DNA of 64,000 nt from Propionibacteriaceae bacterium. GTDB taxonomy: Bacteria > Actinomycetota > Actinomycetes > Propionibacteriales > Propionibacteriaceae. Both the position numbers and the translations under genes were made by a program. Shown here piece after piece: positions 4,543 through 17,740 of the stretch (positions within the stretch are counted from its first letter, which is position 1; every line of letters starts with the position of its first letter). Location of the stretch: positions 1-64,000 of the forward strand of contig JAISJO010000068.1 of the NCBI GenBank assembly GCA_031261485.1, given 5' to 3'. A model generated the notes under the pieces. The model saw only the letters and a list, made by a program, of their open reading frames with translations. It was not told the origin of the DNA and made no database searches.

Positions 4543-5151
4543 ATGGCGCCGGAATCCCGACGTGAAACTATCATAGACGCTGCCATTGAATTGGTCGAGC
4601 GTGACGGCGCTGCTGTGCCCACGCGGGAGATCGCGGCACATGCCGGTATCGCCGAGGGAACTCTCTTCCGCGTCTTCCCCACCAAAGCAGACCTCATCAA
4701 AGCCGTGGTGACAAAGGCGACCGACCCTGCCAGGCTTGTGCGTCAATTGGACACAGTCGACTTGTCCTTGCCTTTGGAAGACCGTATCGGCGCGATCCTT
4801 ACCGCTATCTCTTCGTCCATCGGATCTGTACAATCGTTGATGCTTGTCGCGCGGCAGATGAAGGGCCAATCGCCAGACTGTGAACAGGCGACAGGCCAAA
4901 TGAAGCGTTTCCACCGTCCGCCTAACCCTGAAGTCTTCGCCGCGCATATCTCCAGCGTGAGGGACAGTATCGCCCGTATCATCGCCCCTGACCAGGACCG
5001 TCTCAGCGTCGAACTGACCGACGCATCCTCATTCATCCTCATGGTGGCCGTTTCCCCCATGATGCACTTCCTCCAGCCTCATCTATCCCAGACCGCTCTC
5101 CTCACGCTGGTGACGAGAGCACTTATCAACAAAGAAAGGGTCCATTCGTGA
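4543..5151 (+). CDS. TetR-family transcriptional regulator of the ABC exporter
   Basis: 202-residue repressor: N-terminal helix-turn-helix (RRETIIDAAIELVERDGAAV, then TREIAAHAGIAEGTLFRVF) and a C-terminal ligand domain with little conservation. An in-frame GTG at 4498 exists but overlaps the operator palindrome, so the ATG at 4543 is preferred although its ribosome site is poor. It overlaps the first exporter half-transporter by 4 bp (GTGA), so it most likely controls that pair and itself through the palindrome at 4495-4512. The ligand is probably an exported compound, which is inference. Confidence 0.85.
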   Translation: MAPESRRETIIDAAIELVERDGAAVPTREIAAHAGIAEGTLFRVFPTKADLIKAVVTKATDPARLVRQLDTVDLSLPLEDRIGAILTAISSSIGSVQSLMLVARQMKGQSPDCEQATGQMKRFHRPPNPEVFAAHISSVRDSIARIIAPDQDRLSVELTDASSFILMVAVSPMMHFLQPHLSQTALLTLVTRALINKERVHS

Positions 5152-6893
5152 AGAATCCCTTGAATCGGATGGTGTACCGGTTCCTCAAACCATACTGGTT
5201 GTGGGTTGTCATAGTCATTGCCTTCCAGTTTGGCTCGACGTACGCCGGTCTCGAACTGCCGACCTTGAATGCCGACATCATCAACAATGGTGTGGCCAAG
5301 GGCGACACGGGGTACATCTGGAAGTACGGTGGCTTCATGCTGGCGGTCTCGGCTGCCCAGGTCATCTGCCAGGTCTCAGCGGTTTACCTCGCTTCCCGTA
5401 TGGCGATGTCGTTTGGACGTGACGCGCGCTCGTCCCTGTTCAAGAAGGTCCTGAGCTTCTCTAGTCGTGAAGTGAACAAGTTTGGGGCTCCTTCGCTGAT
5501 CACGCGCAATACAAACGATGTACAGCAAGTCCAAATGCTCGTGCTCATGACCTGCATGATGCTTCTCGGAGCGCCCATCACCATGGTCGGCGGCGTCATC
5601 AAGGCTCTGGAAACCAACATGTCACTGTCGTGGATCATTCTCGCCGCAGTGATCGCTCTGGGCGTCGTCGCGGGTGTTGTCATTGCCAACATGGGTCCGC
5701 TGTTCGCCTCCATGCAGACTCGAATCGACACCGTCAACCGCGTCCTGCGCGAGCACATTTCCGGCATCCGCGTGGTGCGTGCCTTTGTGCGCGAACCTTA
5801 TGAAGCCAAGCGGTTCCAGAAGGCCAACGCAGACTTGATGGACGTCGGCGTCAAGGTCGGACGCCTCATGATGTCGATGTTCCCCCTTGTCATGTTCATT
5901 CTCAACCTGTCGAGCGTGGCCGTCATGTGGTTCGGCTCCCACCAGATCACCGACGGGAACATGGAGGTTGGCGACCTGACCGCCTTCATCACGTACCTCT
6001 TGCAGATCCTCATGTCGGTCATGATGGCCGCTATGATGATTGTCCTGGTTCCCCGTGCGGCGGTGTGCGCGAAACGTATCATGGAGGTCCTCGACCAGCA
6101 ATCAACCGTCGTGCTGTCTGACCATCCCGTCACTGAGGTCACGGGTTCCGGCCAGGTCGCCTTCTCCGACGTTGCCTTCCGTTACTCGGGAGCGGCTGAG
6201 CCAGTCATCTCCAAGATTTCGTTCACGATGGAACCAGGCAAGACGACAGCAATCATTGGCGCCACGGGGTCGGGCAAGACTACTTTGGTCAACCTTGTGC
6301 CTCGGTTGTACGACGCGACGGAGGGCTCGGTTTCCATTGACGGGGTCGACGTCAGGGACCTCGACGAGGACGTGTTGTGGTCCAAGATCGGGCTCGTGCC
6401 CCAGAAGCCGTATCTCTTCTCCGGGACAGTCGCCTCGAACTTGAGGTATGGGAACCCGGACGCCACAGACGAAGAACTGTGGCATGCTCTGGAGATCGCC
6501 CAGGCGAAAGACTTCGTCGAAGAGATGCCTGACAAGCTAGAAGAGCCCATTGCCCAAGGCGGCACGAATGTGTCGGGCGGGCAAAGACAGAGGCTGTCCA
6601 TCGCCCGAGCCCTCGTCAAGAAGCCAGAGATATACGTCTTCGACGACTCCTTCTCGGCCCTCGATGTGGCCACCGACGCACGACTGCGGGCGGCCTTGGA
6701 GCACGAGACCGATGACGCGGCCGTCATGATTGTGGCGCAGCGCGTGTCCACCATCCGCCACGCTGATTCCATCATCGTCCTTGACAATGGAGGCATTGTC
6801 GGTCAGGGAACGCATGAAGAGTTGCTTCAATCCTGTCCGACGTACATGGAGATTGTCGAATCCCAGATGAGCGCTGAGGAGGCACTGGCATGA
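5148..6893 (+). CDS. heterodimeric ABC exporter, half-transporter with degenerate site
   Basis: 581-residue exporter half with six transmembrane helices (residues 15-310) followed by an ATPase domain. Walker A is GATGSGKTT and the signature is VSGGQRQR. The Walker B catalytic Glu is replaced by Asp (VFDDSFSALD) and the H-loop His by Gln (VAQRVSTI). These changes mark the non-hydrolysing half of heterodimeric exporters of the LmrCD, BmrCD and TM287/288 type. The next gene, overlapping by 4 bp, has the missing residues. The pair should export drugs or lipids across the cytoplasmic membrane. Confidence 0.93.
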   Translation: MKNPLNRMVYRFLKPYWLWVVIVIAFQFGSTYAGLELPTLNADIINNGVAKGDTGYIWKYGGFMLAVSAAQVICQVSAVYLASRMAMSFGRDARSSLFKKVLSFSSREVNKFGAPSLITRNTNDVQQVQMLVLMTCMMLLGAPITMVGGVIKALETNMSLSWIILAAVIALGVVAGVVIANMGPLFASMQTRIDTVNRVLREHISGIRVVRAFVREPYEAKRFQKANADLMDVGVKVGRLMMSMFPLVMFILNLSSVAVMWFGSHQITDGNMEVGDLTAFITYLLQILMSVMMAAMMIVLVPRAAVCAKRIMEVLDQQSTVVLSDHPVTEVTGSGQVAFSDVAFRYSGAAEPVISKISFTMEPGKTTAIIGATGSGKTTLVNLVPRLYDATEGSVSIDGVDVRDLDEDVLWSKIGLVPQKPYLFSGTVASNLRYGNPDATDEELWHALEIAQAKDFVEEMPDKLEEPIAQGGTNVSGGQRQRLSIARALVKKPEIYVFDDSFSALDVATDARLRAALEHETDDAAVMIVAQRVSTIRHADSIIVLDNGGIVGQGTHEELLQSCPTYMEIVESQMSAEEALA

Positions 6894-8992
6894 GCGAGAA
6901 TGTCGAAAACGCAGTCAGCGTGAACCAGACAACTGAGAAGAAAGTCGCCAACGAGCGACCCAAGTACGCACCCAAGAGACGCGGCGGCGGCCCTGGCCAT
7001 GGTGGTCCCATGGGGATGGGCGCCCCAGCAGAGAAGGCAATCAATTTCCTGCCGTCTCTGAAGAGGCTCGCCTCTTACCTCAAGCCCGAGAGACTGAAAC
7101 TAGTCTTTGTTGTCATCCTTGGGGCAATCGGCGTAGCACTCAATGTGTATTCTCCGAAGCTACTGGGCAAGGCCACAGACGTCATCTTCTCCGGTGTCAT
7201 TGGGACGATGGTGGGCAACCAACTCTCTTCACCTGAGATTCAGGCTGTGATTCGGCAGATGGGCATGGACCCGTCGAATCTCAGCAAGGATGATGTTCTC
7301 AAACTCTTGGACATGATATCTCAGCTCCCCGCAGGACAAGGGCCAAGCATCCCTACGCAGATGCTCGACCTGTTGAGGTCCGTCGACTTCACTCCCGGAG
7401 TGGGCATCGACTTCTCGCGGTTGGCGATGATCATCTTCATCGCGATTGGGTTGTACGTCGCGTCTGCACTCGTGTTCATTGTCATGGGCTGGTTGCTCAA
7501 CGGTATCGTGCAGCGGACGGTGTACTCGATGCGCGAGCAGATTGCTGGCAAGTTGGACCGTCTGCCCTTGGAGTACTTCGACAAGTCCCCGCGTGGTGAA
7601 CTCTTGTCGCGTGTGACCAACGACATCGACAACATCTCTCAATCATTGCAGCAAACCCTCCAGCAATTGGTGCAGTCGGTTCTCATGCTGATTGGCGTCT
7701 TGGTCATGATGCTGTCGATTTCGTGGGTGCTCACCTTGGTCGCTGTGGCGACCATTCCGGTGTCGCTCATCGCCGTGATGGGCATCGCCAAACAGTCGCA
7801 GAAGAGGTTCGCGGCGATGTGGAAGGAGACCGGCGAACTCAACGCACAGGTCGAGGAGGCGTACACCGGTCACGCCCTCGTCAAGGTCTTCGGTCGCCAC
7901 CGCGAGGTCGAGACCCAGTTCGATGGGTCCAATGGCAAGCTGTTCTCGGCGGCCTTTGGCGCGCAGGCGATTTCCGGACTCATCATGCCTATCATGAACT
8001 TCATCGGGAACCTCGGCTATGTCGCTATCGCTGTCATTGGCGGTTTGCGGGTCGCGTCCGGGCAGATCTCGCTGGGCGATGTACAGGCGTTCATCCAGTA
8101 CCAACGTCAGTTCACTCAACCCATCCAGCAGTTGGCCTCCATGGCGAACCTGCTCCAGTCGGGCGTGGCGTCCGCCGAGCGCGTGTTCGAGGTCTTGGAC
8201 GAAACTGAGGAGACCCCCGATGGCGACGCCCACCTGCCGAGCCCTTTGGCTGGCCGCGTCGAGTTCTCGCACGTGGCCTTCTCGTACGAGCCTGACAAGC
8301 CTCTCATCACCGACCTGTCTCTGACAGCGGAGGATGGGGCGACCATCGCTATTGTTGGTCCGACTGGCGCGGGCAAGACGACCTTGGTCAACCTGCTCAT
8401 GCGGTTCTACAACATCGACTCTGGGACAATTACCCTTGATGATGTGGACACCGTGACGGTCCCGCGTGCGGAATTGCGCGGCGAGGTCGGCATGGTCCTC
8501 CAGGACACCTGGCTCTTCCACGGCACGATTCGGGAGAACATCGCGTATGGTCGCCCCGACGCCACCGAGGAGGAGATCATGGCGGCGGCGAAGACGACGT
8601 ACGTTGACCGTTTCGTCCGCTCGTTGCCCGACGGGTACGACACGGTCATTGACGAGGAAGGGTCGAACGTTTCCGCTGGTGAGAAGCAGTTGCTGACCAT
8701 CGCCCGAGCCTTCCTCGCTGATCCTGCCATCCTCATTCTGGACGAGGCCACGTCATCGGTGGACACCCGAACAGAGGTCTTGGTTCAGCGAGCAATGGGT
8801 GCGCTGCGCAAGGGACGTACATCCTTTGTCATCGCCCACCGACTGAGCACCATCCGTGACGCCGACACCATCCTCGTCATGGAGCACGGCGACATTGTCG
8901 AACAAGGCAATCATGCAACGCTCTTGGGCGCCAAAGGCGTATACTACACGCTATATCAATCCCAGTTCGCTGGAGTTGCTGAGGAGGGGTAA
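6890..8992 (+). CDS. heterodimeric ABC exporter, catalytic half-transporter
   Basis: 700 residues: a charged, Gly/Pro-rich cytosolic N-terminus of about 60 residues (PKRRGGGPGHGGPMGMG), a six-helix membrane domain with a long inserted segment between helices 1 and 2 (residues 90-170), and an ATPase with Walker A GPTGAGKTT, Walker B LILDEATSSVD and H-loop IAHRLSTI, all canonical. The signature is altered to VSAGEK, so the degenerate composite site uses this signature with the partner's Walker motifs. That asymmetry is expected in heterodimeric exporters. The stop is followed by a terminator at 9015-9046. Confidence 0.93.
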   Translation: MSENVENAVSVNQTTEKKVANERPKYAPKRRGGGPGHGGPMGMGAPAEKAINFLPSLKRLASYLKPERLKLVFVVILGAIGVALNVYSPKLLGKATDVIFSGVIGTMVGNQLSSPEIQAVIRQMGMDPSNLSKDDVLKLLDMISQLPAGQGPSIPTQMLDLLRSVDFTPGVGIDFSRLAMIIFIAIGLYVASALVFIVMGWLLNGIVQRTVYSMREQIAGKLDRLPLEYFDKSPRGELLSRVTNDIDNISQSLQQTLQQLVQSVLMLIGVLVMMLSISWVLTLVAVATIPVSLIAVMGIAKQSQKRFAAMWKETGELNAQVEEAYTGHALVKVFGRHREVETQFDGSNGKLFSAAFGAQAISGLIMPIMNFIGNLGYVAIAVIGGLRVASGQISLGDVQAFIQYQRQFTQPIQQLASMANLLQSGVASAERVFEVLDETEETPDGDAHLPSPLAGRVEFSHVAFSYEPDKPLITDLSLTAEDGATIAIVGPTGAGKTTLVNLLMRFYNIDSGTITLDDVDTVTVPRAELRGEVGMVLQDTWLFHGTIRENIAYGRPDATEEEIMAAAKTTYVDRFVRSLPDGYDTVIDEEGSNVSAGEKQLLTIARAFLADPAILILDEATSSVDTRTEVLVQRAMGALRKGRTSFVIAHRLSTIRDADTILVMEHGDIVEQGNHATLLGAKGVYYTLYQSQFAGVAEEG

Positions 8993-9014
8993 GACCTCTT
9001 CTCCTGTCGGGGGG

Positions 9015-9046
9015 GTGGCTGCGACTAACATGGGGGTTGCAGCCAC
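9015..9046 (+). terminator. rho-independent terminator of the exporter operon
   Basis: Perfect 8-bp arms GTGGCTGC and GCAGCCAC with a 16-nt loop, followed by TCTTCTTGT, 22 bp after the exporter stop codon. Confidence 0.7.
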
Positions 9047-9086
9047 TCTTCTTGTGCGACTGGGGAACCGCTGACCTACCTTCTCC

Positions 9087-9157
9087 GTCATTCTGCGCGA
9101 AGTCGCAGAATCCATCTGACAGTCTGAAGCGGCCAACTATCAGTGGTCCCCTAGGCG
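9087..9157. repeat. composite REP-like repeat, copy A
   Basis: A hairpin ATTCTGCG/CGCAGAAT with 6-nt loop (9090-9111) and, 29 bp later, CAGTGGTCCCCTAGG, which covers the stop codon of the minus-strand gene at 9151. Read on the minus strand: stop codon, GGGACCACTGAT, then the hairpin. Similar composites occur at 32606-32656 and 56776-56822. Confidence 0.6.
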
Positions 9158-9933
9158 TTGCCGGAGGTTTGGACCTGGCGCCGTCTCTTTACTGCATCCA
9201 TTGCATCTTGCCAAGCGTGGAGTGAGCCTCGGTTTTGCAGAAGAGTGATGGCCGTGTGGTTCAACCCACCGGGTGTCATCTCACGCCAGTGGTCAGCCAG
9301 TTCGTCGGGTGTCAGGGTGCGGGCCTTGTGGATGAGGGCCTCGAGGAAATCCAGAGTGAATCGCTGGGAGCTTTCTGGCGATAGGCCGTTGCGACCTCCC
9401 CAAACGGCGACCTCGCCGATGGTGGCGAAGAAGGCGCTCTGCATGGACGTGATCGTGGACATTGCGTTCAGCCCGTCCTCATCCTCAGTCGCCGCCAGGG
9501 TTCCCAATCTGCCGAACACTTCCTCGACTTCGGGTGTCAGCGGGTAGGTGGCGATTGGGCCGACGCGGTAGGCGACATAAGGAAGTGGGACCATCTTGGT
9601 CACGGATTCGACCCCGGTCCAGTCTCGTACTTGGGCAAGGGTCGCTGTGGAAATGAAGGTGATGATGCGCTGATCGGGCCGGAACGTGAGGTCGCGGACG
9701 ATGGCTTCAGCCGCCTCGGGGAGCAGGGCGAGTACGACCCAGTCCGACTTGTCGACCACATCTTGGTTCGATTCCTCCACTGTGACATTGGCGAATTCGG
9801 CTGCCAGTCGGGCTGAGCGTTCGGCATTGCGCGGCGACAGGTGTACGTCGATGTCCTCAGGGCCTCCTGCCAGTCCACGTACAAAGGGTTCCCCAATGAT
9901 GCCAACCCCGATGATCCCGATATGCACAGCCAT
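9151..9933 (-). CDS. pyrroline-5-carboxylate-reductase-like NAD(P)-binding oxidoreductase
   Basis: 260 residues. The N-terminal Rossmann motif GIIGVGIIGEP (residues 5-15) and the following helices match the P5C reductase/F420-dependent oxidoreductase superfamily. The C-terminal half is helical and carries a STITSMQSAFFATIGEVAVW stretch, where ProC has its dimer domain. The start at 9933 (MAVHIGIIG) is chosen because the upstream extension is poor in conserved residues and crosses repeat-like sequence. It may be a ProC paralogue rather than the biosynthetic enzyme, since it stands alone and ProC's usual conserved C-terminal motifs are weak. Confidence 0.75.
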   Translation of the reverse strand: MAVHIGIIGVGIIGEPFVRGLAGGPEDIDVHLSPRNAERSARLAAEFANVTVEESNQDVVDKSDWVVLALLPEAAEAIVRDLTFRPDQRIITFISTATLAQVRDWTGVESVTKMVPLPYVAYRVGPIATYPLTPEVEEVFGRLGTLAATEDEDGLNAMSTITSMQSAFFATIGEVAVWGGRNGLSPESSQRFTLDFLEALIHKARTLTPDELADHWREMTPGGLNHTAITLLQNRGSLHAWQDAMDAVKRRRQVQTSGNA

Positions 9934-9998
9934 GGGCCCATGGTAACAGTGTCGGAGTGAGGGTGGAGAGAGGTTGGGGGGGGTCCTCTGGGGCGGCG

Positions 9999-10138
9999 GA
10001 CTTTGGCCATCTTCGACAGGTCCCGGGATGCCGCTCCGAAGTTGGATCAGAGTTGGCCCAAAATCGGGCCAGAACTGGGCGTACTTTGGACCAACTCCGG
10101 ACTGTACCTGTGAAATCAGCACGGAGAAGGCCAAAGTC
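9999..10138. repeat. interspersed 140-bp repeat with inverted ends, copy 1
   Basis: Ends are GACTTTGGCC (9999-10008) and GGCCAAAGTC (10129-10138), exact inverted repeats. Internal blocks (CGAAGTTGGATCAGAGTTGG at offset 38, ACTTTG at offset 84, AAATC-GCACGGA at offset 114) recur at the same offsets in the copy at 38387-38525. No coding frame is supported. It behaves like a small non-autonomous element. Confidence 0.65.
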
Positions 10139-10218
10139 AGCTGATGGCCGCCTGCACGCCGAGCCGTTCGTCTTATCTATGTTGCACTGGCCAAAGAACA
10201 TATAGTGTGCGAGACTAT

Positions 10219-10230
10219 TTCCATATGGAA
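10219..10230. promoter_or_regulatory. 12-bp palindrome upstream of vapBC
   Basis: TTCCATATGGAA is a perfect palindrome 11 bp before the vapB start. A -10-like TATAGT lies at 10201-10206. VapB-VapC complexes usually repress their own promoter through such palindromes. Confidence 0.5.
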
Positions 10231-10241
10231 GGCAGGCGCAC

Positions 10242-10451
10242 ATGTCTATGACGAGTATCGACATTCCTGATGAGCTCATGGCCGAGGTTCTGGAGTTGAC
10301 TGGACAGAAGACGAAGCGAGGGGCGGTCATTCTGTCCCTGGAAGAAGCAGCACGGCGAAGGCGGCAGAAACGTGCGCTGGAGCGTATGTTCACTCTGGAT
10401 TTCATGAGCGACTTGCTTGACCCGGAAGTCCGTGCGAAGGCACGCGGATGA
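10242..10451 (+). CDS. vapB: VapB-type antitoxin
   Basis: 69-residue protein with an N-terminal ribbon-helix-helix (MTSIDIPDELMAEVLELTG, then a helix through KRGAVILSLEEAARRR) and an acidic/basic C-terminus that would wrap the toxin. It belongs to the VapB group with the conserved pattern of a beta strand, ELM helix and TKRGAV turn. It overlaps vapC by 4 bp (ATGA), the standard arrangement. It should neutralise VapC and repress the operon through the palindrome at 10219-10230. Confidence 0.88.
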   Translation: MSMTSIDIPDELMAEVLELTGQKTKRGAVILSLEEAARRRRQKRALERMFTLDFMSDLLDPEVRAKARG

Positions 10452-10891
10452 CTGCGGACGATATCACAGGAGATGACTTGGGCGTTGTTGACACTAGTGT
10501 GTGGAACAGGCTCCCCCGGAGCCCGGCGGTCTTGGCGGCGTTGCAGAGCCAATCGGTGAAACTCAAACTGTGTTTCGTGCCGACGGTGATTCTGGAAATC
10601 GGGTTCAGCGCCCGTTCGAAGCGAGACTGGAACAAGGCCATGGGACAGATTGCGTCCTTCGACGAGTTGCCTTTGAGGCCGCAGACACGAGAGGCCGCCG
10701 TACGAATGCAGGGGTTGCTATGGGATAAGGGCATGGGTCGTGCAGTGGGAGCGTTGGATGTGCTCACAGCTGCTGTGGCCCTCGACCACGGTGCCATCAT
10801 CCTGCACTACGACCGCGACTTCGAGACACTGGCCAGCGTGTGCCCCGAGTTGCGACAGGAATGGATTGTTCCCGCTGGGTCGGTTGCCTGA
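10448..10891 (+). CDS. vapC: VapC-type PIN-domain ribonuclease toxin
   Basis: 147-residue PIN-domain toxin. The four acidic residues of the metal site are visible: Asp15 (VVDTSVW), Glu50 (VILEIGF), Asp104 (ALDVLTAAVA) and Asp122 (HYDRDFE). VapC toxins cleave tRNA or rRNA and stop growth when the antitoxin is degraded; the RNA target here cannot be read from the sequence. A nine-residue acidic leader precedes the first strand. It appears intact and is paired with vapB. Confidence 0.92.
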   Translation: MTADDITGDDLGVVDTSVWNRLPRSPAVLAALQSQSVKLKLCFVPTVILEIGFSARSKRDWNKAMGQIASFDELPLRPQTREAAVRMQGLLWDKGMGRAVGALDVLTAAVALDHGAIILHYDRDFETLASVCPELRQEWIVPAGSVA

Positions 10892-10913
10892 ACGGCAAAC
10901 TGCCGACAATAGA

Positions 10914-10980
10914 CCGCAAATGCTCGACCACCGTCCCGTAAACGTTCGACCAACCATGCCGTAGACGTTCGATTTCCGAC
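10914..10980. repeat. three iteron-like direct repeats upstream of the ankyrin gene
   Basis: Units at 10914-10935, 10936-10958 and 10959-10980 (22, 23 and 22 bp) share the pattern CCG-A-A-G-TCGA followed by a variable tail; units 2 and 3 share ACGTTCGA. They start 22 bp after the vapC stop and end about 110 bp before the ankyrin gene. Confidence 0.6.
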
Positions 10981-11089
10981 TGTTTGCCGCACGAGACGAC
11001 CGCCGCTCTATCGCCCAGATGTCGCATGTCACAGAGACCACCAGAAAGCTACACTTGTACGAAGCAGGCAACCAGACAAAGGTGTAAGC

Positions 11090-12001
11090 ATGGGCGACCT
11101 GAGAATGAATGAAGCGTCAGGCGCGGCGCTGTACAAGTTTTGCTGCGACAACAGCTTTGAATTCATCACAGATATCGGAGAGTTCATTGAGACTGTTGGC
11201 ATCTATTCTCATGTATTACAACAATACTTTAGCGGTCAATCGGATATGACCGCGGCTCATGTTGCCAGTATCGCACGAGCATGCGGAAGAGAACCACGCG
11301 GCTTGAGAGGCCTTCTCGAATACGAATACGAGGTCGCGGAAGAGAGAGAACGCAGGAAGAAGAAACTCGAAACCAAGATGGAAAAGGCTCAAGTCAAGAG
11401 GCAGAAGAAGGCTGAAGAAGAAGCGTGGCGCAATGAACGAATGAAAGAGATACTGGTCGAGCTGGCTCCATTCGGTATCACGCGCATCCAGGATGACAGC
11501 AGAGATTGTCCTATCAGGGGTTACTATCCAATCAAGTTCGTTCTGTACTATCTCAACGATGAAGAGTACTTGCCTGTATTGGAGGAATACCTCAGCGGTT
11601 TGAGCGACGACGATCTAGTCTATGAAGACTCCAATGCGCTGATGTGGGGAGGGCACGAACTGTATGATCAGAAACTCGCCTTGCTCGCGGATCGCAAGGA
11701 GTTCATTCAGGCCCATGTTGCCGACAGTGGACCGAAGGGGAGGACGGCACTGCACTATGCGGCGTCGAGCGATGAGAGCTGTGCACCTGAAGCAATGACT
11801 CTTTTAGTTGAGTGGGGAGCTGATGTCAACGCTCAGGATGATTACGGTTGGACTCCGTTGCATGATGTAGCCGTCAGAAATAGCCGGAACCATCGCTCCT
11901 GGGAAACACTGGAAAGACTTGGCGCTCGTTCCATCAAGAACGCCGCCGGAGATACGCCGGGGAACATTCAAGACAGACTTGATGCTATTGATGCCTGGTA
12001 A
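11090..12001 (+). CDS. coiled-coil and ankyrin-repeat protein
   Basis: 303 residues, visibly less GC-rich than its neighbours, which hints at recent acquisition. Order of parts: an N-terminal region with an ELxEFIETVGIYSHVLQQYFSG-like helix pair (residues 1-75), a highly charged coiled coil (about 82-122, rich in Lys, Arg and Glu), a middle domain, and two to three ankyrin repeats from about residue 216 (GRTALHYAAS, GADVNAQDDYGWTPLHDVAV). Ankyrin repeats bind other proteins. The downstream zinc-ribbon gene starts 16 bp after the stop, so the two probably work together. No catalytic motif is visible; function unknown. Confidence 0.8.
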   Translation: MGDLRMNEASGAALYKFCCDNSFEFITDIGEFIETVGIYSHVLQQYFSGQSDMTAAHVASIARACGREPRGLRGLLEYEYEVAEERERRKKKLETKMEKAQVKRQKKAEEEAWRNERMKEILVELAPFGITRIQDDSRDCPIRGYYPIKFVLYYLNDEEYLPVLEEYLSGLSDDDLVYEDSNALMWGGHELYDQKLALLADRKEFIQAHVADSGPKGRTALHYAASSDESCAPEAMTLLVEWGADVNAQDDYGWTPLHDVAVRNSRNHRSWETLERLGARSIKNAAGDTPGNIQDRLDAIDAW

Positions 12002-12017
12002 GACAACTGGAGGGAAA

Positions 12018-12506
12018 ATGGGAGAGTGCGTATTCTGCAGCAGGAAAACGAACAGCGTCTATACATACTACAGAGGTGAAGTCGTGAGTCGTTCCTACTC
12101 ACAGGCCGGAAACACGTCCACGACGAAGACACGCTATAAAAACATTGCGCAATTATCGAATTACGTCTGCCCACAGTGTTCCACCGGTCTGAACAGAGAC
12201 CCGAAGAGCTTGAGGGATAGTATATTGATCGTAGCAGTGCCATTGGTTGTGTGTGCGGCGCTCTTTGCTCTGGCAGCCGTCACAGACAACAACATACTCC
12301 ACCAATTGAGTGTGATAGCCGCTCTGCTCCTAGTGCTCATTCTTGTCGTGATGATAAGGAGTGTCGGTGTCGTACTCCTGGACAAAGGTCATGACGACGC
12401 AAATGCCGTCAAGATGCTGAGTGAAAAGGCAAAGAAGGAAGGGGACGAGCGCACCTACTTCACGGCGAAGGAGTACAAAGCCCTCAAGCCTGACTCTCAG
12501 ATGTAG
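12018..12506 (+). CDS. zinc-ribbon membrane protein
   Basis: 162 residues. Four cysteines (C4, C7, C51, C54: two CxxC knuckles) suggest a zinc ribbon. Two adjacent hydrophobic segments follow (about 66-87 and 90-114), then a charged C-terminus. The ATG at 12018 has the site GGAGGGA just upstream; the in-frame ATG at 11919 lies inside the ankyrin gene and is rejected. It probably forms an operon with the ankyrin gene and, like it, is comparatively AT-rich. Family not recognised. Confidence 0.75.
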   Translation: MGECVFCSRKTNSVYTYYRGEVVSRSYSQAGNTSTTKTRYKNIAQLSNYVCPQCSTGLNRDPKSLRDSILIVAVPLVVCAALFALAAVTDNNILHQLSVIAALLLVLILVVMIRSVGVVLLDKGHDDANAVKMLSEKAKKEGDERTYFTAKEYKALKPDSQM

Positions 12507-12655
12507 GTGCTCCTTCTGCCCGACCTCCCTTGACAAACACTGTAGGCGCAAGTCATCCTGATTGTAGTCGGGGAGCATTCGTGCAGTTTTTCCTTCCGAA
12601 TGCGGGAGGGTATGTCTGTGGGGGTTCCGCAGTGTTTCGAGGAGGGAAGGCGCAG

Positions 12656-13375
12656 ATGCAACAAGGGAGCCCTCCCATTGTCGAACTTGCAGATGTGAGC
12701 AAGCGCTACGACTTGGGCCCGCGAGGCGTCACTGTCTTGGAGGGTCTGTCTCTGAGCTTCTGGAGGGGTGGGTTCCATGTCATTCTCGGGTCAAGTGGGT
12801 CGGGCAAGAGCACGCTGCTCAACCTCATCGGCGGTATTGACCGCGCCGATTCAGGAAGCATTGTCATTGATGGAAAGGATGACATTGCTCAATACACTGA
12901 CCGCCAACTGACCAAATACCGACGTGACGAAATCGGATTCGTCTTTCAGTTCTACAACCTCATCGCGTCATTGACTGTCCTAGAGAACGTCTGCCTGGCT
13001 CCGCATTCGAGCAAAGCGTCGGGAGACCCACGGGAGCTTCTGTCCGAAGTTGGGCTCGCGGATCATGCCCGTGACTTCCCCTCGCGCTTGTCGGGCGGCG
13101 AGTTGCAGAGAGTGTCAATCGCGCGGGCCCTCTACAAGAATCCAAAACTCCTCTTGTGTGACGAACCAACCGGCGCTCTGGACTCGACCACAGCCAGGAC
13201 TGTCTTGATTCTTCTCAAACGAATCGTGGTCGACCAAGGTCGCACGCTGATCATGGTGACGCACAACCCAGCAATTGCTCGGTGTGCTGACACAGTGACG
13301 ACGCTGAAGGGGCGGGCGGGATGCGACATGGTTCAGCAGGATGTTCCGTTATCCTTCGAGGACGTTGATTTGTGA
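12656..13375 (+). CDS. LolD/MacB-type ABC ATP-binding protein
   Basis: 239-residue ATPase. Walker A GSSGSGKSTLL, Q-loop VFQFYNL, signature LSGGELQR, Walker B LLLCDEPTGALD and an H-loop MVTHNP are all canonical. The start at 12656 (MQQGSPPIVELADVSKRY) has a GGAGGGAAGG site; an alternative TTG at 12530 would give an unconserved leader. It overlaps the FtsX-type permease by 4 bp, so the two form a transporter of the MacB/LolCDE mechanotransmission class that exports or extracts lipids, peptides or antibiotics. Confidence 0.92.
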   Translation: MQQGSPPIVELADVSKRYDLGPRGVTVLEGLSLSFWRGGFHVILGSSGSGKSTLLNLIGGIDRADSGSIVIDGKDDIAQYTDRQLTKYRRDEIGFVFQFYNLIASLTVLENVCLAPHSSKASGDPRELLSEVGLADHARDFPSRLSGGELQRVSIARALYKNPKLLLCDEPTGALDSTTARTVLILLKRIVVDQGRTLIMVTHNPAIARCADTVTTLKGRAGCDMVQQDVPLSFEDVDL

Positions 13376-15702
13376 TGGTCCGTTTTGCAAAGATGACTCT
13401 TCACGACCTGTGGGAGTTCAAGACTCAGTTCTTGGCAGTTGCTGTCATGGTTGCCCTGGGGACGATGGTCTATGTCGGGGTTGAATCTGTTTGGCTGGGC
13501 ATGAAAGACGAGGGAGAAGCATACTTCGATGAGACTTCACTGGCCGACCTCTGGGTTCTTGGCGCAGGCTTCTCGGAGCAGGAACTCAGCAAAGTTCGTG
13601 GGCTTCCTGAAGTGTCCGCTGTTGACATCGTCACAACCACCACAGCCACGGCGCCGACTGTCGATGCCCGAAAAGGAGGGACGCCCTACCTTCTCGTCAT
13701 GAGTCCAAGTTCGACGGACATTTCTCGCGCCCATGTGTTCGATGGGGTGGACTATTCCCCCAGTCTTGACGGCATTTGGCTGCATCATGGCTTCGCGGTC
13801 GAGCATGGTTTCGCTGTCGGTGATGAGATCACTCTGAAGGTCGGCGAACAGGAAAGACAACTTACTGTCAGGGGTTTGGTCTTCTGTCCTGACTTCGTCT
13901 CTTACACTGGATCGCCATCCCAGGTATTGCCCAATCACTCTGTCTACAGTTACGCACTCGTGGGAGCAGACACTATCAAGGAACTTGATCCGTCTGCGAC
14001 TGCCCAACAACTCCGTATCACGTTGTCAGACAGGGATTCGGTCGATATCGACCATTTCAAGACGGTAGTGGCGGACACTCTGGCTGCCACGTACTCGACC
14101 TCTTCTAGCCGCTGGGAATGGTCGGGGACGGCAGGATTCTTGGAGAAGGCCAATCAGATACAACGAGTAGCTATCATTTTCTCTCTCGTGTTCTTTGCCT
14201 TGTCGCTCCTGTGTATCCGCTCGACCATCAAACGAATCATCGCGCAGCAGCGCCGCCAAATCGGAGTCCTCAAGGCGGTTGGCCACAGTGGCGGGGTCAT
14301 CATGGGGAGGTACTTGCTGTCGGTCGGGATTGTGGCAGCGGTAGCTGGAATCGCGGGAGTTGCTTTGGGCCTCACATTCCTCACACCTTTCGTCTTGGAT
14401 GTCGAGCGAGCCCTGTACGACATTCCGACCTGGGAAGGTGGGGCCTCGAACACTCGGTATGTCCTCGTCGGTCTCAGTGTGTTGTTCTGCGTGGGCGTGG
14501 CAGCAGTGTCGGCATATTCGGCAGTCCGGGAACTGCCAGCCGTAACGCTGCGCAATAGCAGTGTGGTGTCGGCCAAGCGGACACTGGTTGAATCTTGGGA
14601 AGCGCTATGGTCCCGGCTCTCGTTCTCTGCACGCTGGGCGGTTCGAGACATGTCGCGTAATCGACTTCGCACAGTCGTGGGAGTGATTGGGGCTGCCGGA
14701 AGCCTCATCCTCCTGATGGCCAGCCTAGGCTTGGACGACTCGATTCGTGCGTCGGGCGCCCGGTTGTACGGGGAGCAGTATTCGTACGGCTGGCGTGCAG
14801 ACTTCCGTGTTCCTGTCGGGACCGATACACAGGAAAGTGTCAGTAGTGATTTCAATCATGAGGTTCAGTGGCTCCAGGAGATGCAAATCGAAGTGCGAAC
14901 TGCGGACATGAGACATACCGGGACCGTGGTGGTTTTCACACCTGGGTTCTATTTCAATGTCCTTGATGCACGGGGCGATTCGGTGAGTCTGGAAACCGGC
15001 GATGTGGCCGTGTCTGCGAAGTTCGCTGATTCCATGGGCCTGAGTGTCAATGACACGATTCAAGTGAGCGCGCGGGGAAAGATTGTGACGGCAATCATCA
15101 CGAATGTTGTTCCCACCATCGCACCTCAGGGCATCTATGTGTCTGAAGCCACATTCGAAGGATTGGGGTGGGACTTCCAGCCGACGGTGGCCCTGGTAGG
15201 CGACTGGGACGATGTGAGATCCCTGGAGGAAGACCCGGCCGTCTTGGATGTCGTCCGATTGTCTGATCAGTACCATGACGCGGAGCAGGCACTTCTCTCG
15301 GTCCGTCAGATCGTTCGTATCCTCATAGCAGCAGCGGTCATCATCGCCGTGACTGTCATGTACAGCATCGGTTTGCTCAATTACCTGGAGCGGGAACGGG
15401 AGTACGCCACTCTCAAAGTGTTGGGGTTCACCAGGCGAGAGATATTCGGCGTAGTCGTCAAGGACGCGCTACTCGTATTGGCTCTTGGCGCTTTGCTTGG
15501 GCTCCCGCTCGGCTGGGTTTACCTGAATGTGTACGTGCAGTCTGTGGCGACGAGTTCCTTCGACTTCCTGCCCGTCATCAGGGCGAGGTCGATTCTCCTC
15601 AGTCTCGCGGCGGTCGTGGGGAGCAGCGGACTAGCTGTCGCCATCGTCTGTTGGCGTATCGCACGCCTAGATATGGTTGAGTCGCTGAAGTCTGTTGAGT
15701 AG
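13372..15702 (+). CDS. FtsX-family ABC permease
   Basis: 776 residues. One transmembrane helix near the N-terminus is followed by a long extracytoplasmic domain (about 45-255), then helix groups near 265-390, a second extracytoplasmic domain (about 455-640) and a final three-helix FtsX core near the C-terminus. The double FtsX arrangement is typical of large actinobacterial exporters paired with LolD-type ATPases. A GTG at 13372 gives the 4-bp overlap; the ATG at 13375 is equally possible. Substrate unknown. Confidence 0.9.
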   Translation: MMVRFAKMTLHDLWEFKTQFLAVAVMVALGTMVYVGVESVWLGMKDEGEAYFDETSLADLWVLGAGFSEQELSKVRGLPEVSAVDIVTTTTATAPTVDARKGGTPYLLVMSPSSTDISRAHVFDGVDYSPSLDGIWLHHGFAVEHGFAVGDEITLKVGEQERQLTVRGLVFCPDFVSYTGSPSQVLPNHSVYSYALVGADTIKELDPSATAQQLRITLSDRDSVDIDHFKTVVADTLAATYSTSSSRWEWSGTAGFLEKANQIQRVAIIFSLVFFALSLLCIRSTIKRIIAQQRRQIGVLKAVGHSGGVIMGRYLLSVGIVAAVAGIAGVALGLTFLTPFVLDVERALYDIPTWEGGASNTRYVLVGLSVLFCVGVAAVSAYSAVRELPAVTLRNSSVVSAKRTLVESWEALWSRLSFSARWAVRDMSRNRLRTVVGVIGAAGSLILLMASLGLDDSIRASGARLYGEQYSYGWRADFRVPVGTDTQESVSSDFNHEVQWLQEMQIEVRTADMRHTGTVVVFTPGFYFNVLDARGDSVSLETGDVAVSAKFADSMGLSVNDTIQVSARGKIVTAIITNVVPTIAPQGIYVSEATFEGLGWDFQPTVALVGDWDDVRSLEEDPAVLDVVRLSDQYHDAEQALLSVRQIVRILIAAAVIIAVTVMYSIGLLNYLEREREYATLKVLGFTRREIFGVVVKDALLVLALGALLGLPLGWVYLNVYVQSVATSSFDFLPVIRARSILLSLAAVVGSSGLAVAIVCWRIARLDMVESLKSVE

Positions 15703-15711
15703 GGAGGAGCA

Positions 15712-15879
15712 ATGGTTAGGTCGGAGTCGATGACAACAACTGCCCCGTTTCAGACATTCGGCCCAAAACTCACTTCTTCTTTCTCCGATGCATCGACGCT
15801 GCCGCATTCATGTATGAATGAGCGGAGTCGTCAGCCCAGGGTGCGCTCGAACCGCATGGCCCCAACTTTGTTGAGGTAA
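15712..15879 (+). CDS. possible small ORF, 55 residues
   Basis: ATG at 15712 follows a strong site (GGGAGGAG) placed only nine bases after the permease stop codon. The frame is 55 codons (starts MVRSESMTTTAP, ends RMAPTLLR), Ser/Thr/Arg-rich and without a recognisable domain. Its last 49 bases run over the end of the convergent DUF3800 gene. It may be translated by coupling or may be chance. Confidence 0.25.
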   Translation: MVRSESMTTTAPFQTFGPKLTSSFSDASTLPHSCMNERSRQPRVRSNRMAPTLLR

Positions 15880-16517
15880 TCCTTCTTGAGTGTTCGTGGG
15901 CTAGTGAAGAAGAACATGTCGGCCCGTGACAGGCTGCCGTCATCCGCCTTGGCTCGGAGCAGTTCCAGAGTGCAGAAGAGGTCGGCGACTTGGAACAGGC
16001 GGTATTGGGAGGGGGCTACACGACGGAACTCGACATCGAAAAAGAAGGCGTTGAACAGCGTGTTCATGATGTCAGTGATTTCGGCTTGCCCGTTGTCGTA
16101 GTAGGCAATTACCTTGTCAAAGGAAAGAAAGAACTCTGCATTCTCGCGTAGGAACAGCGCCAGAGAGCGTGATATCGACCCTTTGAGTTTCAGTCGGCCC
16201 TTGTGCTCTCGCTTGCGGAACGTGAATGCCTTGTAGGTCACGCCTGCTGAGCGGGCAAAGGCAAACAAGCGAGTGAACGCGGCCTTGCGGGTTTCGATGG
16301 GGAGCCCTCGGTATTCTGCCTCACCTCGGATAGCCGCTCCAGTGTGTACTGCATGGTTGCCGGGCAAGCCGATGTCAGCGAGCGATTGGGACAGTCGGGC
16401 CAGGTGGGAATCGATTCCATGGCGCTGGTCGTGGAACACAAAGACAACCACATAGTAGCCTGAACCGGAGTCACCAAAGTCGCCTGACTCGTCGATGAAG
16501 ATACTCAGTTCAGACAC
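15831..16517 (-). CDS. DUF3800 family protein
   Basis: 228 residues. The N-terminal ELSIFIDESGDFGDSGS pattern, with its Asp and Glu/Ser cluster, and the later conserved Asp region (VIAYYDNGQ, SQYRLFQVADLFC) match DUF3800, an RNase H-like fold often found in phage-defence islands and mobile regions. No partner nuclease or toxin is next to it. The GTG at 16517 is chosen because translation from the upstream ATG would read through the hairpin at 16539-16562. Catalytic activity is assumed from family likeness only. Confidence 0.8.
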   Translation of the reverse strand: MSELSIFIDESGDFGDSGSGYYVVVFVFHDQRHGIDSHLARLSQSLADIGLPGNHAVHTGAAIRGEAEYRGLPIETRKAAFTRLFAFARSAGVTYKAFTFRKREHKGRLKLKGSISRSLALFLRENAEFFLSFDKVIAYYDNGQAEITDIMNTLFNAFFFDVEFRRVAPSQYRLFQVADLFCTLELLRAKADDGSLSRADMFFFTSPRTLKKDYLNKVGAMRFERTLG

Positions 16518-16538
16518 GATACCCCAATAGAAATGTAA

Positions 16539-16562
16539 ATGGCGGGGGACTTCCCCCGCCAT
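16539..16562 (-). other. strong hairpin before the DUF3800 gene
   Basis: Perfect 10-bp arms ATGGCGGGGG and CCCCCGCCAT around a 4-nt loop, followed on the minus strand by TTTACATTTC. It lies 22 bp before the chosen start codon, in the leader of the gene. It could be an attenuator or a terminator isolating the gene from upstream transcription. Confidence 0.55.
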
Positions 16563-16723
16563 CATGTGGACCCGGGCGTCTCGCGCCAGTCCAAGTACAC
16601 ATATTCTAGCGCAACTCACCCTGCAACTGTGGGCACATTCTTACTGCCGATGGTACCCATTCACCCATAGGCAGAGCCAACGAAGCGGACAAACGGGACG
16701 GCGACAATTGACCACATTCTCTG

Positions 16724-17740
16724 TCATTCCTCTTTGGCCTTCTTCTTGTGAGGTTTCAACCGACTCAGAAGGGCCGCGCCTTTGCTGGTCTTGGGTTCTG
16801 GCGATGACTCGGGTTCGGACGGTTCGGACGGGTACGAATCCGATCCCGGAGTGCCGTCTGGCGCGATTACCTCTGGCTCGGGGGCGCTTGTCTCCTGTGC
16901 CGCGGCCTCACTTGGCCCTGGCACCGCTGCTTCACTCGACTCTGCCCCAACCTCTGCCATGCCTTCTTCTTCCGCTTCGGCCAGTGCGGCTTTGCGGGCG
17001 AAGTCGTCCAGGGTGGGCATGCCATACGCCCTGGCGGTCGAGTTGTACAACTCAGTGATGACGTTCTGCATCCTCGCGGCGAACTCCTCGGGCGACTCCG
17101 ATTTGAGCGCGGTCAGGGGGTGGCCGATGACGACGTGTACCTCCGGATGGTTGGTCGGCGGGAGGGGCCGGGTGTACGGCCAGGCGGCGAAAGCACCGAC
17201 GAGTGCGAAGGGGATACAGGGCACAGACTTAGCAATCGACAATGCAGCGACACCAGGTTTGAACGGGCTCATCGCACCTGTGCGCGAACGGGTGCCCTCA
17301 GGGAAAATGAGCAGGGGAATACCTTCGTCCAGCAACCGCCCAGTGAGGCCCTTGTGAGTCTTGGCGCCCTTGCGGTCCACCGGATACGCATTGAAAAACA
17401 GTGAGGTGGCAAGGCCTTTCAACTTCTTGTCGAAGAAGTAATCGGCGGCTGCGCCCGTGGCGACGTGACGACTCAGCCGTTGGGGCAGGGAGCCCAGAAT
17501 GAGGGAAGCGTCCAGGTGGGAGGAGTGATTGGAGATGGCGATGAAGGGTTCTTTCACAGCATCAAGAAGGTCGCGCCCGTGGACCGACACCTTGCATAGG
17601 CCCCAGACGGTCGCCTTGAGCATGACATCCTGACCGACAAAACGTATCCCTGTGCGCACGGGATTGCGGTAGTACTTCGGATTGGATTGAGTCGCCTCGC
17701 TCACTTCTCCCTCGATTTCGTCAATGTGCGCGAAATCCAT
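16724..17740 (-). CDS. PlsC-type 1-acyl-glycerol-3-phosphate acyltransferase-like protein
   Basis: 338 residues. The HX4D acyl-transfer motif (NHSSHLD, His72 and Asp77) and FPEGTRS define the PlsC family of phospholipid acyltransferases. The C-terminal roughly 95 residues are low-complexity Pro, Ser, Glu and Ala with a Lys-rich end. The start at 17740 (MDFAHIDEIEGEV) is one option; a GTG at 17704 would overlap the upstream dehydrogenase stop by 4 bp, also plausible. It follows the SDR gene, and the two may act in lipid or small-molecule metabolism. Confidence 0.82.
   Translation of the reverse strand: MDFAHIDEIEGEVSEATQSNPKYYRNPVRTGIRFVGQDVMLKATVWGLCKVSVHGRDLLDAVKEPFIAISNHSSHLDASLILGSLPQRLSRHVATGAAADYFFDKKLKGLATSLFFNAYPVDRKGAKTHKGLTGRLLDEGIPLLIFPEGTRSRTGAMSPFKPGVAALSIAKSVPCIPFALVGAFAAWPYTRPLPPTNHPEVHVVIGHPLTALKSESPEEFAARMQNVITELYNSTARAYGMPTLDDFARKAALAEAEEEGMAEVGAESSEAAVPGPSEAAAQETSAPEPEVIAPDGTPGSDSYPSEPSEPESSPEPKTSKGAALLSRLKPHKKKAKEE

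Follow-up and report, generated by a model that had tools for sequence, protein, structure and literature searches.

A lineage-restricted gene pair for a putative DNA-binding ankyrin protein and a zinc-ribbon-like membrane protein in a Propionibacteriaceae genome

The locus considered here raises the question of what a bacterium might achieve by pairing a soluble ankyrin-repeat protein with a small zinc-ribbon-like membrane protein, a combination that a preliminary description had singled out as an unusual, AT-richer cassette and had tentatively regarded as a defence or toxin-immunity module. The window, i.e. the whole stretch of 64,000 nucleotides that was analysed, belongs to contig C78 of a 2.8-Mb genome assembled in 112 contigs, and the features of the locus are the following.

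10242..10451, plus strand: vapB antitoxin gene (Pfam VapB_antitoxin, E 2.2e-7)
10448..10891, plus strand: vapC PIN toxin gene (Pfam PIN, E 7.6e-8), directly upstream of the leader of the pair
10927..10972, plus strand: candidate operator, two head-to-tail 23-nt copies starting at 10927 and 10950 and identical in 18/23 positions
11090..12001, plus strand: gene 1 of the pair, encoding P0001 (303 aa)
12018..12506, plus strand: gene 2 of the pair, encoding P0002 (162 aa)
12656..13375, plus strand: gene for a LolD/MacB-like ABC ATPase (Pfam ABC_tran, E 6.9e-33; the best 25 NCBIfam matches are all under the cut-off)
13372..15702, plus strand: gene for a duplicated FtsX-type permease of 776 aa (Pfam FtsX, two stretches)
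15831..16619, minus strand: DUF3800 gene, a mobile neighbour (Pfam DUF3800, E 1.3e-10)

The genes for P0001 and P0002 share a strand and form a two-gene unit with a gap of 16 nt. Gene 2 had previously been assigned a TTG start at 11919, which falls within gene 1, and we place its start instead at the ATG at 12018, which is immediately preceded by the ribosome-binding site GGAGGG. The GC contents of the two genes are 51.0% (P0001) and 50.7% (P0002), and no lower value occurs among the 48 window ORFs that have 120 aa or more (mean 59.6%, sd 2.4). When composition is corrected for amino-acid content both still fall below all 38 reference genes (P0001, z -3.5; P0002, z -2.2), and the vapB, vapC, ABC, FtsX and DUF3800 genes lie between about -0.5 and -1.5. 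Since the deviation persists after this correction, the AT-rich cassette is genuine and does not merely reflect a lysine-rich protein.

The foreign character of the cassette is furthermore supported when 18 genus mates are compared. Their genomes keep the exporter pair (5148-8992), with matches of more than 1.2 kb in 17/18 and of 259 nt in the remaining one, and 18/18 also keep the acetate kinase-acyltransferase block (16.9-19.7 kb). Between these flanks (about 9.0-16.7 kb; 8992-16724) the matches listed for the genus mates are confined to ABC-ATPase motifs, short copies of repeats and the DUF3800 gene, the latter matched over more than 120 nt in five of the 18, and in none of the nine relative stretches inspected (five exporter loci and four kinase loci) are the two blocks adjacent. 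The flanks thus being conserved apart from one another and the middle missing in the mates, the window carries some 7.7 kb of additional sequence at a rearranged junction. In most genus mates the two blocks lie on separate contigs, and in one of them (G108) they lie about 118 kb apart on a single contig, which marks 8992-16724 as a point of rearrangement. The junction could conceivably be an assembly artefact, but the segment is internal to a 92-kb contig. The vapBC genes, the interspersed repeat and the DUF3800 gene that had been described nearby are all present. The repeat, at 9994-10145, is MITE-like with inverted ends of about 20 bp (17/20 complementary) and at least seven diverged genomic copies, and it overlaps the 5' extension of an ORF resembling pyrroline-5-carboxylate reductase. 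A REP-like palindrome at 9089-9112, ATTCTGCG-CGAAGT-CGCAGAAT, occurs in many copies in the genome itself and in the genus mates G075, G157 and G099, and copies of the DUF3800 gene with 62-65% identity are found at unrelated sites in G108 and G149, suggesting a mobile cargo gene of the genus.

The collections searched yielded no full-length relative of either protein, and to this extent the pair is indeed unusual. No full-length relative of P0001 was found in 198 family genomes (its own and 197 others), where 14 other genomes listed at E <=0.1 match it over short stretches mostly in the repeat part, and in a 396-genome phylum sample four others match, in the ankyrin part only. When the 197 family genomes were searched, P0002 was found in its own genome only, and it gave four weak partial matches at E <=0.01 in the 396 phylum genomes; two of these four were inspected and both look like chance matches to membrane helices, one in a larger multi-TM protein (L029) and one in a small hydrophobic ORF (L030). 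Among 72,556 plasmid records there is no relative, residues 1-217 of P0001 and the whole of P0002 giving none even at E 10, and among 50,697 phage records P0001 gives only low-scoring repeat matches to three Wolbachia phage records (E 2e-3 to 9e-3) and P0002 none. Viral contigs and GTDB genome contigs likewise contain no confirmed relative of either protein in two scans that are sensitive to close relatives only. That the genes might be widespread core genes is therefore excluded for the Propionibacteriaceae, and judged from these sequence searches the pair is an orphan pair, lineage-restricted in the collections searched. No published description of such a pair was found, including in passages of PMC7159879, PMC8195603 and PMC3710099, which is not proof of its absence in print. 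The strangeness of the pair is mostly this absence of relatives, and the finding is as such real but modest.

P0001 can be divided into a probable XRE-like helix-turn-helix at about 28-70, a charged helix at 72-128, an undefined middle at 125-212 and two ankyrin repeats from 217 to about 280. The repeats are real, as previously described (Pfam Ank, E 1.8e-10; PF00023, 40.9 bits against a cut-off of 21.1, in two stretches from 217-251 onward), but only two are detectable and both are C-terminal; a profile of 34 repeat rows from other genomes scores 45.1 bits at 217-253 and 9.0 bits at 253-278. An extension of the repeats into residues 125-212 is not supported, 433/5000 shuffles scoring equally well with this profile. 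Of the coiled coil that had been proposed, what stands is a predicted long charged helix, which is about 60% E/K/R at residues 77-124 and is a long helix in a poor single-sequence structure model (mean pLDDT 48.1, with 80-87 in the helix core), and which may be a single charged helix.

The helix-turn-helix is absent from the preliminary description and was picked as a hypothesis after inspection of the sequence. An XRE profile built from 16 of 20 matching domains within the genome itself scores 11.7 bits on the P0001 N-terminus, which none of 20000 shuffles equals (best 9.2; the shuffles ignore the helix pattern), and ranks P0001 first among 41 window proteins, above a TetR-like protein. In addition, the sole phmmer match in the PDB is the HigA-type antidote protein 3cec, ungapped and in the same register as the XRE match, albeit at E 0.9. 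The hhalign match of the N-terminus to 15 of the 16 XRE domains spans 38 columns without a gap at P 0.0039, but with a probability of 8.6%; for comparison, P is 0.35 and 0.37 for two window stretches that are not helix-turn-helix and 0.00066 for the TetR-like protein. No helix-turn-helix family model of Pfam or NCBIfam is reported on P0001 even at E 10; the only Pfam match in the N-terminal segment scans is a sub-threshold one to EAD2 (PF19956; 15.5-19.6 bits against a curated cut-off of 23.8, E 0.001-0.02), which overlaps the putative helix-turn-helix at residues of about 47-77, and a second EAD copy was not found by Pfam in seven other proteins of the locus. On balance the N-terminus would nevertheless seem to form a helix-turn-helix of the XRE/HigA type.

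P0002 has cysteines at 4, 7, 51, 54 and 79, of which the first four form a CxxC (4/7) and a CPxC (51/54) with a spacing of 43, and two hydrophobic helices at about 64-88 and 92-121 that form a hairpin followed by a charged C-terminal tail, in keeping with its description as a two-TM zinc-ribbon membrane protein. Zinc binding is putative and suggested by the motif. Since the loop between the two hydrophobic stretches is short, both termini should face one side of the membrane. In the N-terminal head there are 10 basic residues and 4 acidic ones, and in the tail 9 of each kind. A poor single-sequence structure model (mean pLDDT 54.8) shows a head rich in strands and a pair of long helices. The putative zinc finger family TIGR04104 matches residues 37-111 at E 6.9e-5, scoring 23.1 bits where the cut-off is 45, and matches to GFA, DUF6632 and similar Pfam families are likewise sub-threshold and were rejected.

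The 198-nt leader between vapC and P0001 (10892-11089) contains 2.2 copies of one 23-nt unit according to TRF, and the paired repeats are, suggestively only, a candidate operator for P0001, as an equally good repeat arises in 2/1000 dinucleotide shuffles yet in 8/323 window tiles of 198 nt. The term iterons previously applied to them is unjustified by 2.2 copies of a single unit, with no further copy of leader or repeat detectable elsewhere in the genome at the sensitivity used; an origin as plasmid-replication iterons was rejected, since there are just two copies and the scan of neighbouring proteins revealed no replication gene. A structured leader RNA was also rejected (folding z -0.14, no Rfam match), as was an operator common to the pair and the ABC gene, since the gap before the latter holds no match to the repeat (best 15/27) and shared control is therefore unsupported.

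The ABC gene starts 149 nt downstream of P0002 and is possibly co-transcribed with the pair; no terminator-like site was found in the gap. The gap (12507-12655) does contain a TTGACA hexamer, spotted by eye, and the ABC genes may therefore own a separate promoter. Distant relatives of the ABC/FtsX exporter occur in 13/198 family genomes at E <=1e-30, including its own (25-31% identity), and in 19 plasmid records (24-28%); at 1e-60 a search of 371 phylum genomes returned the exporter itself only. A TetR-like gene, called by eye, is found beside the ATPase in 4/6 family exporter loci. Among four plasmid loci a TetR is annotated in one, and AvrD-family genes precede the exporter relative in two. 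The duplicated-FtsX distant relatives at L140 and L141 (NZ_CP035117.1 and NZ_CP008839.1) are found in AvrD-family clusters on Lactobacillaceae plasmids, suggesting small-molecule export.

Taken together we tentatively favour, with a probability of roughly 40%, the view that the pair is lineage-restricted and recently acquired, and that its DNA-binding regulator acts with a membrane partner, governing its own unit and perhaps also the downstream exporter. The helix-turn-helix of P0001 would bind the paired 23-bp repeats upstream and thereby control its own operon. Ankyrin repeats are protein-binding scaffolds, and together with the charged helix those of P0001 may contact a cytoplasmic zinc-ribbon head of P0002, which would either hold P0001 at the membrane or report the state of the membrane to it. 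The likeliest output would be transcription of the two-gene unit and perhaps also of the ABC/FtsX exporter, whose role as a target we infer. This assignment as a regulator is supported by the gene order, the common strand and short gap with a ribosome-binding site before gene 2, by the helix-turn-helix scores (XRE profile, 3cec and hhalign) together with the paired repeats of the leader, and by the fact that distant exporter relatives are often flanked by a TetR-like regulator. Against it, the helix-turn-helix evidence is weak in absolute terms, the structure models of both proteins are poor, and no co-occurrence of the pair with the exporter was found in other genomes.

It is unlikely, yet deserves consideration, that the two genes form a toxin-antitoxin or abortive-infection module, in which P0001 would be a self-repressing DNA-binding antitoxin or sensor and P0002 a two-TM effector released or activated by it, along the lines of HigBA/XRE systems or of RexAB from phage lambda. 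The antitoxin-like order with the helix-turn-helix gene first and the second gene close by, and the resemblance of the helix-turn-helix to a HigA-type protein, fit such a module equally well as they fit a regulator with a membrane partner, and the candidate operator, the island setting beside vapBC and the mobile DUF3800 gene, and the sub-threshold match to EAD2, presented as an adaptor domain of conflict systems in PMC7159879, point in the same direction. The suggestion of a defence or toxin-immunity module nonetheless finds no positive support, since the PADLOC models match P0001 over the ankyrin part only, do not match P0002, vapB, vapC or the DUF3800 gene, and give only generic-looking ABC-ATPase matches in ten neighbouring window proteins. 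In addition, phages and plasmids are frequent carriers of such modules, and the records searched hold nothing beyond the ankyrin matches; furthermore there is no catalytic motif, no match to a known system and no co-occurrence, and the scan of the neighbours revealed no partner with EAD2.

Rather improbable is that the pair provides accessory parts of the exporter, with all four genes forming one operon, P0002 serving as a small membrane subunit and P0001 as a scaffold and not as a transcription factor. The common strand, the intervening gap without a terminator-like site and the inclusion of all four genes in one acquired stretch, in which the ABC genes are themselves mildly AT-rich (z -1.3 and -1.5), would agree with this, but neither the six family exporter loci, which were judged from their ORFs and by eye, nor the four plasmid loci have an ankyrin or zinc-ribbon neighbour, and the pair differs from the ABC genes in GC content (51% vs 56%).

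More doubtful still is that the genes are lineage-restricted and currently without function, being an acquired remnant in transit through the genome. The lack of relatives in the family and the low coding scores against host codon use (0.029 bits/codon for P0001 and -0.002 for P0002, vs 0.167 for vapC) are what a remnant would show, but both frames are open and complete, that of P0002 scoring highest of six and that of P0001 tying with a top frame that has four stops, and moreover the first ankyrin repeat is intact at 45 bits and gene 2 has a ribosome-binding site. Finally, we give little credence to an undescribed two-gene abortive-infection or toxin-antitoxin system, in which a helix-turn-helix-ankyrin sensor-repressor would detect an invader protein via its repeats and release or activate the zinc-ribbon two-TM effector.

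Should both the helix-turn-helix and the link to the membrane prove true, the pair would offer a eukaryote-like ankyrin protein a compact means of linking a bacterial membrane to DNA, or else constitute a new membrane-effector module; at present it is an orphan pair of testable architecture in an island with other mobile genes.

Among known systems, XRE/HigA-type regulators such as 3cec match P0001 without gaps over 38-43 residues that cover helices 2-4 of the helix-turn-helix, but at no better than E 0.9. P0001 moreover has a charged helix and ankyrin repeats, and its gene precedes one for a membrane protein and not for a RelE-type toxin. EAD2, which is a chiefly actinobacterial domain according to PMC7159879, has about 31/81 positions matched by P0001, but P0001 reaches 19.6 bits at best, no second copy is seen in the neighbours scanned, and the residues concerned coincide with those of the putative helix-turn-helix. 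P0002 resembles the cxxc_20_cxxc putative zinc finger proteins of TIGR04104 in having a CxxC motif followed by a hydrophobic region, but stays well below their cut-off and has a CxxC spacing of 43 instead of 20. RexAB of phage lambda likewise comprises a soluble DNA-binding protein and a membrane protein encoded by adjacent genes, and the likeness to the present pair is one of two-gene layout by analogy, with no sequence relation shown. As for the ABC/FtsX exporters with a TetR neighbour, the exporter relatives are just 24-31% identical and the regulator-like gene here is one for a putative helix-turn-helix-ankyrin protein, followed by that for a zinc-ribbon membrane protein, but what the loci have in common is that genes for an ATPase and a duplicated FtsX permease lie next to one resembling a regulator gene.
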